Source of the DNA: an uncultured Pelagibacteraceae bacterium
GTDB lineage: Bacteria > Pseudomonadota > Alphaproteobacteria > Pelagibacterales > Pelagibacteraceae
Direction: 5' to 3'
Length of the DNA stretch: 44,019 nt
Assembly: GCA_902592325.1 (NCBI GenBank)
Contig: CACJEC010000003.1
Coordinates: 1-44,019, forward strand
The notes under the pieces are model-generated. The model was given only the letters and a program-made list of their open reading frames with translations, was not told where the DNA came from and made no database searches. Positions 16,289-19,880 of the stretch are shown here, in pieces. The first letter of the stretch is position 1. Each line of letters begins with the position of its first letter. The translations under genes were made by a program, and so were the position numbers.

Positions 16289-16579
16289 TTGGCTATTGTA
16301 AAATCAAAGCTTTTAAAACAACTCTCAAGAAATTATCCAAATTTTTTAAATAAAGACCTTGAAAAATTTACTAATATAATTTTAAAAGAAATAAAAAGAA
16401 CCTTAAAACGTGGAGAAAGAGTAGAACTTAGGGGTTTTGGTGTTTTTTCCACAAATATACAAAAAGCAAGAATTTCAAGAAATCCAAAAACTGGGGAAAA
16501 GGTTCACACACCTGAAAAGAAAACAATTCACTTCAAAATGGCCAAAGATTTGTTTAAGAAATTAAATAATCATGAATAA
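16289..16579 (+). CDS. ihfB: Integration host factor subunit beta
   Basis: HU/IHF-family DNA-bending protein, 96 residues. The N-terminal helices (VKSKLLKQLSRNYPNF) and the beta-arm region RGFGVFSTN...ARISRNPKTGEKV are typical, and the Pro in RNPKTGE is the residue that intercalates into DNA. The start is TTG rather than ATG: TTG-GCT-ATT-GTA gives the expected M-A-I-V-K-S, preceded by a purine-rich AAGAAGA. It lies 16 bases after rpsA and overlaps pyrF by 8 bases. IHF-beta is favoured over HU by its position next to rpsA. Confidence 0.92.
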   Translation: MAIVKSKLLKQLSRNYPNFLNKDLEKFTNIILKEIKRTLKRGERVELRGFGVFSTNIQKARISRNPKTGEKVHTPEKKTIHFKMAKDLFKKLNNHE

Positions 16580-17246
16580 AAATATCTTTGTTGCTTGCGA
16601 TGTATCAAGTCAAAAGGAAATCTTAGAGTTGCTCAAAGAAATTCATCAAGAAATTTCAGGAATTAAAATAGGTTTACAGTATATTACTAAACACTCTAAA
16701 GAGGAAATTAAAGCTCTTGGAAAGTTTAATAAGCCAATTTTTTATGATGGTAAATTTTTTGATATTAAAAATACTTTAGTTGAATCTGTTAAGTCTCTTA
16801 AAGATCTCAATGTAAGTTATGCAACTGTTCATTTATTAAATGGGCTGGAGTCTTTAAAAGCTGCTAACGAAGCTGCAAATTTAATTAATATAAAATTATT
16901 AGGTGTTTCGGTATTAACTAGTTTCAGTAATGAAGATTTAGACCAACTAGGCTTTAAAGATGAAGTAGAGGCCCAAGTTTTAAGGCTAATTAAAATTGCA
17001 GAAAAAGCAAATCTACACGGTGTAATTTGTAGCCCATTAGAAATACAGATAATTAAAAAAATTGCTCCTAATCTAAAATGTTTCACCCCAGGTATAAGAC
17101 AGGATCATAATAAAGATGATCAGAAAAGAACCATGAATGCAAAACAAGCTTTAGAGGCAGGTAGTGATTGTTTGATTATTGGAAGACCAATTACTAACGG
17201 TAATCCAAAAGAAAATATTCAAAAAATTTTATCTTCTTTAAAATAA
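16572..17246 (+). CDS. pyrF: Orotidine 5'-phosphate decarboxylase
   Basis: Final step of UMP synthesis. The TIM-barrel enzyme shows Asp10 in FVACDVS, KIGLQY, and the catalytic Asp-x-Lys-x-x-Asp array as FYDGKFFDIKNT (usually DLKFHDIPNT). Near the C-terminus TPGIR and IIGRPIT form the phosphate-binding strands. The length of 224 residues is normal. It overlaps ihfB by 8 bases and abuts trpF directly, so the whole rpsA-to-folC block is likely one transcriptional unit or closely linked ones. Confidence 0.95.
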   Translation: MNKNIFVACDVSSQKEILELLKEIHQEISGIKIGLQYITKHSKEEIKALGKFNKPIFYDGKFFDIKNTLVESVKSLKDLNVSYATVHLLNGLESLKAANEAANLINIKLLGVSVLTSFSNEDLDQLGFKDEVEAQVLRLIKIAEKANLHGVICSPLEIQIIKKIAPNLKCFTPGIRQDHNKDDQKRTMNAKQALEAGSDCLIIGRPITNGNPKENIQKILSSLK

Positions 17247-17861
17247 ATGAAGTCTAAAATTTGTGGAATATCAGATAAAAATACTCTTAAATTTTTAACT
17301 GAACACCCTCTATCACCTCAGTATATTGGTTTTATTGTTAATTTTCCTAAATCAAAAAGATACGTCGACCCTGATAAATTAAAAGATTTATTAAAAATAG
17401 AAAAAAGAAATTCATCATATGTAGCAGTTTTGGTCAAACCAGATAAAGAAGTTTTGGAAAGAATCAAAGATTTACCTTTTGATTACTATCAAATTTATGA
17501 TTGTGAGCCTCATGAAATTAGAAATATTAAAATACAATATAATAAAAAGATAATTACAGCTTTCACAGTTCAAACATTAGATGATGTTAAAAAATATAAG
17601 TTTTATAACGATGTTTCTGATATATTTTTATTTGATAGCAAAGGTTATGAAAAAAGTATGTCTTTCGAGCATGCTTTAATAAAAGATTTAAAATTTAATA
17701 AAGAAGTAATGTTAGCAGGCAATATTAAGATCAATGATGAGCTTGAAAATTATAAAGAAATAGCTGATATTATAGATATATCTGGAGGTGTAGAAACTTC
17801 TGGAGTAAAAGATATTTCCAAAATAGAAATTTTCTTAAATAAAATAAATTATGAAACTTAA
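17247..17861 (+). CDS. trpF: Phosphoribosylanthranilate isomerase, divergent
   Basis: Third step of tryptophan synthesis from anthranilate, a (beta-alpha)8 barrel of 204 residues. The general base Cys6 sits in KICG, general acid Asp130 in LFDSKG, the Arg of the KSKRYV segment (Arg38) is kept, and the phosphate loop is seen as AGNI and ISGGVETSGVKD. The usually invariant QLHG segment reads QIYD (82-85), an unusual change. It begins immediately after the pyrF stop and its last 11 bases overlap trpB. The identification is firm from the catalytic pair and from the adjoining trpB and trpA. Confidence 0.88.
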   Translation: MKSKICGISDKNTLKFLTEHPLSPQYIGFIVNFPKSKRYVDPDKLKDLLKIEKRNSSYVAVLVKPDKEVLERIKDLPFDYYQIYDCEPHEIRNIKIQYNKKIITAFTVQTLDDVKKYKFYNDVSDIFLFDSKGYEKSMSFEHALIKDLKFNKEVMLAGNIKINDELENYKEIADIIDISGGVETSGVKDISKIEIFLNKINYET

Positions 17862-19083
17862 AAAAAAAATTCCATTAATTGATCAGCATGATAAATTTGG
17901 ATTTTGGGGTGGTAAGTTTGGTGGAAGTTTTATTCCTGAAACTTTAAAAAAACCTGTAGAAGATTTGACAAAAGAATTTGAGAAACTTAGAAAAAATAAA
18001 AAATTTATTAAACAAAGAGACTATTATTTTAAAAATTATATTGGATCTCCTACCTCTTTTATAAAATTAGAGAATTTGTCTAAACATTTGGGAGGTGCTC
18101 AAATTTGGGCCAAGGTTGTTTCTGAGGCAAATGGTGGTGCACACAAAATTTATAATGCTACTGTCCATGCTTTAATATGCAAAGCAATGGGAAAAAAGTA
18201 TATTGTGGGCGATACAGGTGCAGGATACGCAGGAAAAATGCTCAGTATGGCAGCCAGAAAATTTGGTCTTAAATGTAAAATTTTTATGGGGGCGAAAGAT
18301 ATTAAGAGACAAAAACCAAACTGTGATGCAATGAAGAAGAATGGTGCTGAAATAGTTCCAGTTTATTCTGGAAGTCAAACATTAGTTGATGCAGTAAGTG
18401 AATGCATGAGATATTGGGTTTCTAATTGTGATAATACTCACATGTGTGTTGGCTCAACAGTAGGGCCTAATATTTTTGTGAAAATTTGTGGTTGGAGCAC
18501 TGCTCAAATTTCTAGAGAACTTAAAACCCAACTAAAAGATGAATTTAAAAAGATTCCAAAAAAATTAAAACTTATTAATTGTGTTGGAGGTGGAAGCTCA
18601 GCATATGGTTTTTGGAGTGAGTTTATCAATTATGATAAAAGACATATTGAATTAGTAGGAGTTGAGGCTGGAGGACCAAAAAAATCTAAACTTCATGCAG
18701 CACCTTTAAGTAGAAATGCTAAAATTGGGATTCTACATGGAGCTGCTTCTTACGTTTGCCAAAACAAAGAAGGGCAAATTCAAGAAACAGAGTCTATAAG
18801 TGCTGGATTAGATTATCCAGGTGTAAGTCCAATCCATTGTTTCTTGAAAGATACTAAAAGAGCAAGATACACTTATGCGACAGATGAAGATGCATTAAAT
18901 GCTTATCAAATGGTTACCAAATTTGAAAAACTTAATCCAAGTTTAGAGCCAAGTCACGCATTTGCTGAAGCAATAAAAATTGCTCCTAAATTAAGTAAAG
19001 ATACAATCATTATTTGTAATTCTTGTGGGGATGCATCTAAAGATAGAGATATTTTAAAAGAAAGATTAGGTAAAAAAAAATGA
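17851..19083 (+). CDS. trpB: Tryptophan synthase beta chain, highly divergent
   Basis: PLP fold-type II enzyme, 410 residues, that normally joins indole to serine. Position-by-position comparison with the Salmonella enzyme from the PLP lysine onward needs no gap for about 80 residues. The Schiff-base Lys99 (K87) is in GGAHKIYN. The catalytic Glu109 is Asp121 here (DTGAGYAG for ETGAGQHG). Arg153 and Asp321, which form the domain-closing pair, are kept, as are GGGSS and ISAGLDYPGV. The KREDL segment before the lysine, the GPHPYP segment and the SGRGDKD C-terminal motif are all altered (SEANGG, GPNIFV, SCGDASKD), and Lys167, which contacts TrpA, is Val179. It overlaps trpF by 11 and trpA by 4 bases. 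Family membership is certain; the exact substrate is less so. Confidence 0.85.
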   Translation: MKLKKKIPLIDQHDKFGFWGGKFGGSFIPETLKKPVEDLTKEFEKLRKNKKFIKQRDYYFKNYIGSPTSFIKLENLSKHLGGAQIWAKVVSEANGGAHKIYNATVHALICKAMGKKYIVGDTGAGYAGKMLSMAARKFGLKCKIFMGAKDIKRQKPNCDAMKKNGAEIVPVYSGSQTLVDAVSECMRYWVSNCDNTHMCVGSTVGPNIFVKICGWSTAQISRELKTQLKDEFKKIPKKLKLINCVGGGSSAYGFWSEFINYDKRHIELVGVEAGGPKKSKLHAAPLSRNAKIGILHGAASYVCQNKEGQIQETESISAGLDYPGVSPIHCFLKDTKRARYTYATDEDALNAYQMVTKFEKLNPSLEPSHAFAEAIKIAPKLSKDTIIICNSCGDASKDRDILKERLGKKK

Positions 19084-19880
19084 TTTCTCTTATTAAAAAA
19101 ACTTTTGAAAATACTAAAAAAGAAAATAGACCCGCATTACTTACTTATACAGTTGCTGGTGATAATACAAAAAAAAAATCATTAGAAATCTTAAAATCTA
19201 TCTCAAAATATTCTGATATTTGTGAACTAGGCTTTCCACATAACACTCCAATTGCAGATGGTGGTCAAATACAAACAAGTGCTTATAGAGCTATTAAAAA
19301 TGGCATTAAGATCAATGATGTTTTTTCAATAGCAAATCAATTCAAAAGGTTAAAAAAAAATAAGCCAATAATTTTGATGGGTTATTATAATATGATTTAT
19401 CAATACAATGAAAATAAATTTATAAATAAATGTAAAAAATCGAAAATTGATGGATTGATTGTTGTTGATTTGCCTTATCCAGAAAATAAGTCTTTTTCTT
19501 TAAGATGTAAAAAAAAGGGAATTAATTTTATTCAATTGGTCTCACCAACTACATCAAGAGAGAGGTTAACACAAATTATTAGAAATAGTCATGATATGGT
19601 TTATTACATTTCTATGCTGTCAACAACTGGTGGGAAATTGAAAGTAGCACCTAAAAAAATTCTAGAAAGATATAAAAAGATAAAGTCATTAAATAAAAAT
19701 AAAAATATTGTAATAGGTTTTGGAATAACAGAAAAAACAATCAAATCTCTTAAAAAAGCTGATGGTTTAGTTGTTGGAAGTGCAATTTGTAAAGAAATAA
19801 CAAATTCTATAAATAAAAGACAAAATGCTGTCACAAATGTTACTAATATAGTAAAAAAGTTGAGAAATAAAATTAGATGA
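19080..19880 (+). CDS. trpA: Tryptophan synthase alpha chain, divergent
   Basis: The TIM-barrel subunit that releases indole from indole-3-glycerol phosphate and channels it to TrpB. Catalytic Glu49 (CELGFP) and Asp60 (IADGG) are at exactly the Salmonella positions, GFGIT and VVGSAI make the phosphate site, and a Tyr pair precedes loop 6. Differences are PHNTP instead of PFSDP at 53-57, so the Asp56 that bridges to TrpB is Thr, and loop 6 reads SMLSTTGG in place of SRAGVTG. The length of 266 is normal. It starts within the trpB stop (ATGA) and ends within the accD start (ATGA). Confidence 0.87.
   Translation: MISLIKKTFENTKKENRPALLTYTVAGDNTKKKSLEILKSISKYSDICELGFPHNTPIADGGQIQTSAYRAIKNGIKINDVFSIANQFKRLKKNKPIILMGYYNMIYQYNENKFINKCKKSKIDGLIVVDLPYPENKSFSLRCKKKGINFIQLVSPTTSRERLTQIIRNSHDMVYYISMLSTTGGKLKVAPKKILERYKKIKSLNKNKNIVIGFGITEKTIKSLKKADGLVVGSAICKEITNSINKRQNAVTNVTNIVKKLRNKIR

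Follow-up and report, generated by a model that had tools for sequence, protein, structure and literature searches.

Tryptophan synthase genes of the window

We analyzed a stretch of 44,019 bases, here called the window, from an uncultured bacterium of the SAR11 order, Pelagibacterales; it lies on contig C3 of a draft genome of 925,153 bases in 43 contigs that is 75% complete. The best 80 of the 561 relatives of the window in a collection of named genomes were Pelagibacterales records, mainly single-cell and metagenome genomes, which leaves carriers in other phyla possible. The window carries a trpF-trpB-trpA run, of which the last two genes encode the beta chain (TrpB) and alpha chain (TrpA) of tryptophan synthase. 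A first-pass annotation had proposed that this pair is altered at catalytic and interface residues. The TrpB and TrpA residues that it named were all present, and the changes at Glu109, Gln114-His115, Lys167, and TrpA position 56 were found to be fixed or nearly fixed in one clade of SAR11 enzymes, here called type I. The three genes are as follows.

17247..17861, plus strand: trpF, directly 5' of trpB, opening the trpF-trpB-trpA run (PF00697, 84.5 bits)
17851..19083, plus strand: trpB, tryptophan synthase beta chain, SAR11 type I, 410 amino acids (TIGR00263, 392.8 bits; predicted fold)
19080..19880, plus strand: trpA, alpha chain and partner of the type I TrpB, 266 amino acids (TIGR00262, 213.5 bits; PF00290, 225.7 bits)

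The first-pass annotation had placed this TrpB in neither the TrpB1 nor the TrpB2 class. TrpB2 was indeed not matched, the score with the TrpB2-like model TIGR01415 being 89.9 bits compared to a cut-off of 518.85, but the TrpB1 cut-off of TIGR00263 (392.45 bits) was just passed, and by score the window TrpB appears to be a marginal TrpB1. The same cut-off was passed by 72 of the 197 genomes of the order, those with ordinary TrpBs included, and the window score is borderline. The TrpA score was well above the TIGR00262 cut-off of 102.35 bits, and the Glu49 and Asp60 that define membership are present, as the first-pass annotation had noted. The predicted TrpB fold, for which the input alignment included ordinary TrpBs, had a mean predicted local distance difference test score of 93.4; its best match to TrpB structures had a Z score of 64.5 (1.1 Å over 387 residues), and its match to a serine-bound TrpB had a Z score of 64.4 (1.1 Å over 387 residues). 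By score, fold, and tree, type I TrpB is on the TrpB1 side, but it is a variant and not a standard TrpB1 because Asp replaces the catalytic Glu109.

Residues replaced in type I TrpB

A total of 323 loci were reduced to 297 by removal of exact duplicates and of loci lacking a TrpB that reached 385 amino acids; 282 of these also had a TrpA of at least 235 amino acids. When grouped at 50% identity, the 297 nonidentical TrpBs comprised 233 of type I, 63 others, and one outlier. The 63 others and 9 TrpBs from plasmid records formed a comparison set of 72 (52 proteobacterial, 11 from the SAR11 order, and 9 from plasmid records, including one from E. coli), which was picked mostly from the best-scoring matches and is not representative of all TrpBs. 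TrpB L322 (genome G082) and two TrpB2 rows were left out of the column counts. Residues are numbered after the E. coli TrpB record L327, to which the window TrpB aligned with an offset of +12 at each position tested from Ec77 to Ec194; the gap-free alignment around the pyridoxal phosphate (PLP) lysine is thus longer than the approximately 80 residues first described. The TrpB features are as follows, all on the plus strand.

18121..18132, plus strand: SEAN, TrpB residues 91 to 94, before the PLP lysine; His82 is replaced by Asn94
18145..18147, plus strand: Lys99, the PLP lysine (Lys87), kept in 233 of 233
18211..18213, plus strand: Asp121, replacing the catalytic Glu109; Asp in 233 of 233 type I, Glu in 72 of 72 comparison TrpBs
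18226..18231, plus strand: Tyr126-Ala127, replacing Gln114-His115 (type I alignment)
18328..18330, plus strand: Ala160, replacing Arg148, one residue with which Gln114 interacts in the known network (type I alignment)
18385..18387, plus strand: Val179, replacing Lys167; Val 230 and Ile 3 in type I, Lys 71 and Ala 1 in the comparison set
18463..18480, plus strand: GPNIFV, replacing GPHPYP (type I alignment)
18598..18600, plus strand: Ser250, replacing Asn236, a PLP phosphate anchor; Ser in 233 of 233, Asn in 72 of 72
19024..19044, plus strand: CGDASKD, TrpB residues 392 to 398, replacing SGRGDKD (type I alignment)

The changes at positions 109, 114, 115, and 148 lie in the indole pocket. In the Salmonella enzyme, the carboxylate of Glu109 bonds indole N1 and stabilizes formation of the C-C bond, the closed state has Gln114 bonded to both Asn145 and Arg148, and the pocket is framed by His115 and Phe306 (PMC9512447). 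The Asp found at position 109 in type I retains a carboxylate that is one carbon shorter than that of Glu. Position 114 was Tyr in 222 and Met in 11 of the type I TrpBs, versus Gln in 64, Met in 5, and Ala in 3 of the comparison set, and position 115, which was His in all 72 comparison TrpBs, was never His in type I (Ala 221, Phe 6, Asn 5, Gln 1). Position 148 was Ala in 183, Ser in 40, Phe in 6, and Arg and Val in 2 each, versus Arg in 59 and Lys in 13. Taken as a set, positions 114, 115, and 148 were Tyr-Ala-Ala or Tyr-Ala-Ser in 218 of 233 type I TrpBs and Gln-His-Arg/Lys in 64 of 72 comparison TrpBs. The PLP phosphate is anchored by His, Ser, and Asn (PMC6608616), and the alignment identified this Asn as Asn236. 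Three changes had been missed by the first-pass annotation: Asn236 to Ser (233/233), Arg148 to Ala or Ser (223/233), and, in TrpA, Gly181 to Ser (223/227).

The replacement of the KREDLxH, GPHPYP, and SGRGDKD segments by SEAN, GPNIFV, and CGDASKD was found as first reported. The window TrpB has AKVVSEAN where the KREDLNH region stands, and position 82 was Asn in 191, Thr in 36, Pro in 3, and Arg in 2 of the 233 type I TrpBs but His in all 72 of the comparison set. Pro was present at the sites of window residues 208 and 210 in 72 of 72 comparison TrpBs, compared to mainly Ile or Val in type I, and position 379 was Asp in 223 of 233 type I TrpBs versus Arg in 69 and Thr in 3 of the others. Lys167 is not universal, as comparison TrpB L329 has Ala there. 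The Cys in place of Ser377, which had been singled out near the pyridine nitrogen, was present in all 233 type I TrpBs but is no special feature: the comparison set had Cys in 49 and Ser in 23, and Cys377 also occurs in ordinary TrpBs of the SAR11 order (L002 and L004). His86, Lys87, Thr110, Arg141, Asn145, Ser235, Asp305, Glu350, and Lys382 were invariant in type I, as was the GGGS phosphate loop (233/233).

Type I differed at 37 of the 92 columns that were constant (at least 95%) in the others, 31 of them by residue and 6 by insertion. The changed columns were not concentrated in the COMM region, the limits of which we took to be window residues 114 to 201: 7 of 22 constant columns were changed within it and 30 of 70 outside it (Fisher P = 0.083, with the difference running the other way), or 24 of 64 outside it without the 6 insertion columns. 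Rewiring focused on the subunit interface was therefore not supported.

TrpA and the subunit contact

Asp56 of TrpA and Lys167 of TrpB form an inter-subunit salt bridge, and the first-pass annotation had noted that both partners are lost in the window. TrpA residues were counted in 227 type I and 59 comparison sequences, with the following results.

19224..19226, plus strand: TrpA Glu49, catalytic, kept in 227 of 227
19245..19247, plus strand: TrpA Thr56, replacing Asp56; Thr 181, Ala 38, and Cys 8 in type I, Asp 51 and Glu 8 in the comparison set
19257..19259, plus strand: TrpA Asp60, catalytic, kept (Asp 226, Glu 1)
19620..19622, plus strand: TrpA Ser181, replacing the loop-6 Gly181; Ser 223, Gly 2, and Asn 2 in type I, Gly 58 and Thr 1 in the comparison set

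Asp or Glu at TrpA position 56 together with Lys at TrpB position 167 occurred in none of the 227 type I pairs and in all 59 comparison pairs, so that each of the 286 pairs counted had either a charged or an uncharged contact and never a mixed one. Since type I is one clade, this agreement would reflect mostly one event. Thr183 of TrpA was kept in all 227 type I sequences. In the complex, changes of Asp56 reduce TrpA activity (PMC6608616), and in simulations Asp56 of TrpA and Lys167 of TrpB each contact TrpB Tyr279 (PMC8187860). The two genes adjoined each other in all 21 loci of the order that were compared. TrpB and TrpA distances were correlated across 54 type I loci (r = 0.82, versus 0.59 for TrpB-trpF and 0.58 for TrpB-accD), but these correlations do not single out the TrpB-TrpA pair because those of trpF-accD (r = 0.84) and TrpA-accD (r = 0.73) were similarly high.

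Distribution of type I in the order

Of the 197 genomes in the order, 191 had some match to the TIGR00263 profile, and a whole or partial TrpB could be read in 179. When each was assigned by its best match among five query TrpBs, 167 of the 179 carried type I (165 like that of the window and 2 like L008), 5 carried type II (like L009), 3 were like L005, and 4 were like the ordinary L002, one of which (G082) was very divergent. No near match was found outside the order, where scores reached at most 418 bits among 385 genomes of the class and 419 bits among 299 genomes of the phylum. SAR11 genomes within these samples scored 797 to 841 bits, five of the matched genomes of the class sample being SAR11, and full-length type I TrpBs scored as low as 655 bits. 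Type I is a single clade that, within the sets searched, occurs only in Pelagibacterales. Carriage by phages, plasmids, or viruses was rejected, as type I trpBA at 60% identity or more was absent from 125 plasmid and 20 phage records and type I trpBA was also absent from the viral contigs searched.

A full trpBA was missing in 16 genomes of the order. An accD profile search of these genomes found that 13 contained no accD apart from a fragment at the edge of a contig (G087), whereas accD was found in all three control genomes with trpBA; weak matches of 21 to 64 bits to the accD model in the genomes lacking trpBA were of a kind also present in a control genome. Because 13 of the 16 also lacked accD, and because in two (G166 and G192) a contig ended inside the trp locus, the absences look like assembly gaps, and the idea that some SAR11 have truly lost trpBA was set aside, save for one genome, G057, which is described below. 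Drafts lacking trpBA (G078, G101, G162, G163, G154, G106, and others) mostly lacked accD too. Assembly gaps thus seem to be frequent in the trp region and could mislead automated calls of tryptophan auxotrophy.

Origin of the type I pair

Type I TrpB formed one clade with support of 100/100 on a stem of 1.16 changes per column, and type I TrpA formed the same clade with the same support. The proposal of a distinct tryptophan synthase lineage was borne out, although the lineage is not new, having been reported by Kagan et al. in 2008 (PMC2395257). Type I grouped with type II and L005 with support of 94/91, and in the TrpB tree no internal branch was longer than the one that split off the two TrpB2 rows. 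The type I pair may be either a fast-evolving vertical descendant of an alphaproteobacterial TrpB1 or an acquired enzyme. Horizontal gain from an unsampled donor, replacing an alphaproteobacterial pair, would concern history only and is independent of function. This route would fit the long stem of type I and the placement of ordinary TrpBs of the same order (L002 and L004) within the Alphaproteobacteria, and other TrpBA types do sit at the trp locus between SAR11 neighbors. However, trees in which type I was held with the Alphaproteobacteria were not rejected (approximately unbiased test, P = 0.545) and had a slightly higher likelihood, by 3.55, than the free tree, trees in which it was held with the ordinary SAR11-order TrpBs were not rejected either (P = 0.294), and the low scores outside SAR11 given above offer no closer outside relative. 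We regard such a gain as a serious possibility while leaning somewhat against it.

Function of the type I pair

The type I trpBA genes lie in a conserved trpF-trpB-trpA locus and are under strong purifying selection: the ratio of nonsynonymous to synonymous substitution rates (dN/dS) was 0.035 to 0.059 for trpB compared to five relatives and 0.050 to 0.113 for trpA in five pairs. In a survey of nine genomes (that of the window and eight at 99 to 100% completeness), each carried trpD and trpC and had a single PALP-family match in the trp locus; other PALP matches lay elsewhere, one in the genome of the window and two or three in the other eight. No TrpB2-like match above the cut-off was present in any of the nine, and a check for a second standard trpBA found no second TrpB-grade match for these genomes among the 150 TrpB1 matches listed. 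Genome G011, a single contig of 1,308,759 bases that we take to be strain HTCC1062, has the type I residues at each listed position. That strain grows in artificial seawater with glycine, glycine betaine, pyruvate, dimethylsulfoniopropionate, and vitamins, and tryptophan is not among the nutrients listed (PMC5069961); Kagan et al. argued that the single trpB of HTCC1062 must be functional (PMC2395257). Given this growth and the lack of another TrpB-grade match among those listed, indole and L-serine are most likely the substrates from which the pair makes tryptophan. Except for Asn236, the residues tested for PLP binding, serine binding, and alpha catalysis are kept. In our judgment, the type I pair is very probably the sole, working tryptophan synthase of the window bacterium, and it probably catalyzes the ordinary reaction.

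Several points weigh against this reading. Weaker second matches to the TrpB1 model were present in several genomes, the genome that contains the window has a completeness of only 75%, and the identity of G011 with HTCC1062 is presumptive. In G057 (locus L321), a shortened accD adjoins folC, with neither trpA nor trpB within approximately 1.4 kb; this arrangement is possibly a real rearrangement or loss. In addition, Brzovic et al. reportedly found in 1992 that the change of Glu109 to Asp in the Salmonella enzyme alters its specificity and activity, and full activity is therefore not to be assumed.

In the ordinary reaction, TrpA would cleave indole-glycerol phosphate to indole, and TrpB would join indole to L-serine by means of PLP. 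The indole pocket of type I appears to have been rebuilt in concert (Glu109 to Asp; Gln114, His115, and Arg148 to Tyr, Ala, and Ala or Ser; Asn236 to Ser), in which Asp at 109 would still polarize indole N1 and Tyr at 114 may fill the room vacated by His115 and Arg148. With the Asp56-Lys167 contact replaced by one of Thr, Ala, or Cys with Val or Ile, and Gly181 by Ser, the coupling of the subunits may be weaker or may depend on Arg141-Asp305 and loop 6. Altered allostery is plausible from these replacements. More tentatively, and with less confidence than doubt, the pair might represent an alternative design in which a reshaped, Asp-based indole site and an uncharged subunit contact allow channeling with little ligand-driven allosteric switching.

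The first-pass annotation had also raised a shifted substrate. Such a TrpB would use another nucleophile in place of indole, or would accept O-phosphoserine where ordinary TrpB takes L-serine, in the manner of TrpB2o enzymes. The part that is changed is indeed the indole pocket (positions 109, 114, 115, and 148), and the Salmonella mutant mentioned above is said to have altered specificity. Phosphoserine would be possible in some SAR11, as a complete serABC set is present in subclade IIIa and some other genomes, but it is missing in subclade I isolates (PMC10030771), and phosphoserine use is disfavored in subclade I because of this absence. Given that the only TrpB-grade match among those listed adjoins trpA and trpF, that trpC and trpD are kept in the nine genomes, that the TrpB2-like score is far below its cut-off, and that HTCC1062 grows without tryptophan among its listed nutrients, we consider a shifted substrate unlikely. 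A catalytically dead TrpB that merely activates TrpA to release indole could account for the many otherwise constant positions that are changed, but it is very improbable because Lys87, His86, Glu350, Arg141, Asp305, and the GGGS loop are kept in every type I TrpB and no other TrpB was found for the job. A chimeric or erroneous assembly, conceivable in a draft of 43 contigs, is contradicted by close pairs (TrpB identity up to 94%) in single-cell, metagenome, and single-contig genomes and hardly merits belief.

Neighboring genes and other TrpBA types

Two further genes at the window locus are presumably ihfB and folC. When the pyrF of the window (16572-17246) was compared with the pyrF of 270 loci, the median identity was only 38.7%, although the adjacent ihfB and trpB of loci L064, L069, and L071 are 85 to 90% identical to those of the window. 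Only a few loci (L129, L043/L075, and L137) have a similar pyrF, with 81 to 84% identity. This suggests that the window pyrF may be a replaced gene. The window trpF was approximately 32 to 38% identical to the trpF of several other SAR11 genera, and it evolves faster than trpB (dN/dS of 0.14 to 0.29 versus 0.035 to 0.06 with the same five relatives).

Five genomes from the same genus as the window (G171, G024, G103, G184, and G026) carry type II trpBA (L052 to L056). This type has 34 to 38% TrpB and 27 to 30% TrpA identity to the window and is flanked by trpF (53 to 58% identity) and accD (45 to 86%) at the same locus. The type II TrpB L009 keeps Glu109, Gln114, His115, Lys167, and Asn236 and has Gln at 305, and its TrpA partner has Glu at 56 and 60. 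G026, which we take to be HIMB5, is a single contig of 1,343,202 bases, and its TrpA has Glu at 56 and 60. Two further kinds come from another family of the order: L005 to L007 are an intermediate TrpBA (462 to 468 bits with the TrpB1 model), and L002 to L004 are ordinary alphaproteobacterial TrpBA (633 to 649 bits). Gene order in L004 and L005 is pyrF-trpF-trpB-trpA-accD. The very divergent TrpBA of L322 (G082; 28% TrpB identity, end branch of 2.82) has Leu167 and TrpA Thr56, with Lys382 and Asp383 replaced too, and its locus has a typical ihfB (84%) and an accD of only 49% identity. In L062, trpA and trpC gave two matches each and not one, perhaps from sequencing error or decay; its genome, G158, is a complete single contig that we believe to be IMCC9063.

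Comparison with known systems

Tryptophan synthase is a standard case for the study of allostery and substrate channeling, and views on Glu109, Gln114, Lys167, and TrpA Asp56 come largely from Salmonella enzymes with single substitutions. In a major group of marine bacteria, the reaction appears to proceed without these residues and without His115 and Arg148. If type I is fully active, these residues would be one of several network solutions; if it is slow, this may reflect a slow-growth physiology. The alternative design, if true, would be a natural counterpart of regulatory streamlining and would provide a ready-made multisite variant of positions studied singly in Salmonella.

A SAR11 trpB cluster was described by Kagan et al. 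as an early-diverging trpB_1 group from the metagenome of one sea, in passages that contain neither residue-level detail nor any mention of a change in TrpA (PMC2395257). No residue-level account of SAR11 TrpB was found in the open-license literature searched. The lineage has thus been known since 2008, but its residue set, order-wide fixation, and matched TrpA changes seem to be undescribed. TrpB2 and TrpB-like enzymes (TIGR01415) are homologous PLP-dependent enzymes with which type I has only a weak score. Like the TrpB1 enzymes of Salmonella, E. coli, and Pyrococcus furiosus, type I has the TrpB1 fold (Z scores of 60.5 to 64.5 and 1.0 to 2.0 Å among the 50 structure matches listed) and keeps the PLP lysine, the serine-binding loop TGAG, Arg141, Asp305, and Glu350. 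Unlike them, it has Glu109, Gln114, His115, Arg148, Lys167, Asn236, and Arg379 replaced, and its identity to the structures among the matches listed is 36 to 44%. Structures have been solved for the Salmonella TrpB mutants Q114A, Q114N, K167T, and S377A, and type I differs from ordinary TrpB at the same positions as these and the Glu109-to-Asp mutant. The laboratory mutants carry single changes, however, and the type I residues differ from theirs except for the Asp at 109; type I is in addition changed at Arg148, His115, and Asn236 of TrpB and at positions 56 and 181 of TrpA.

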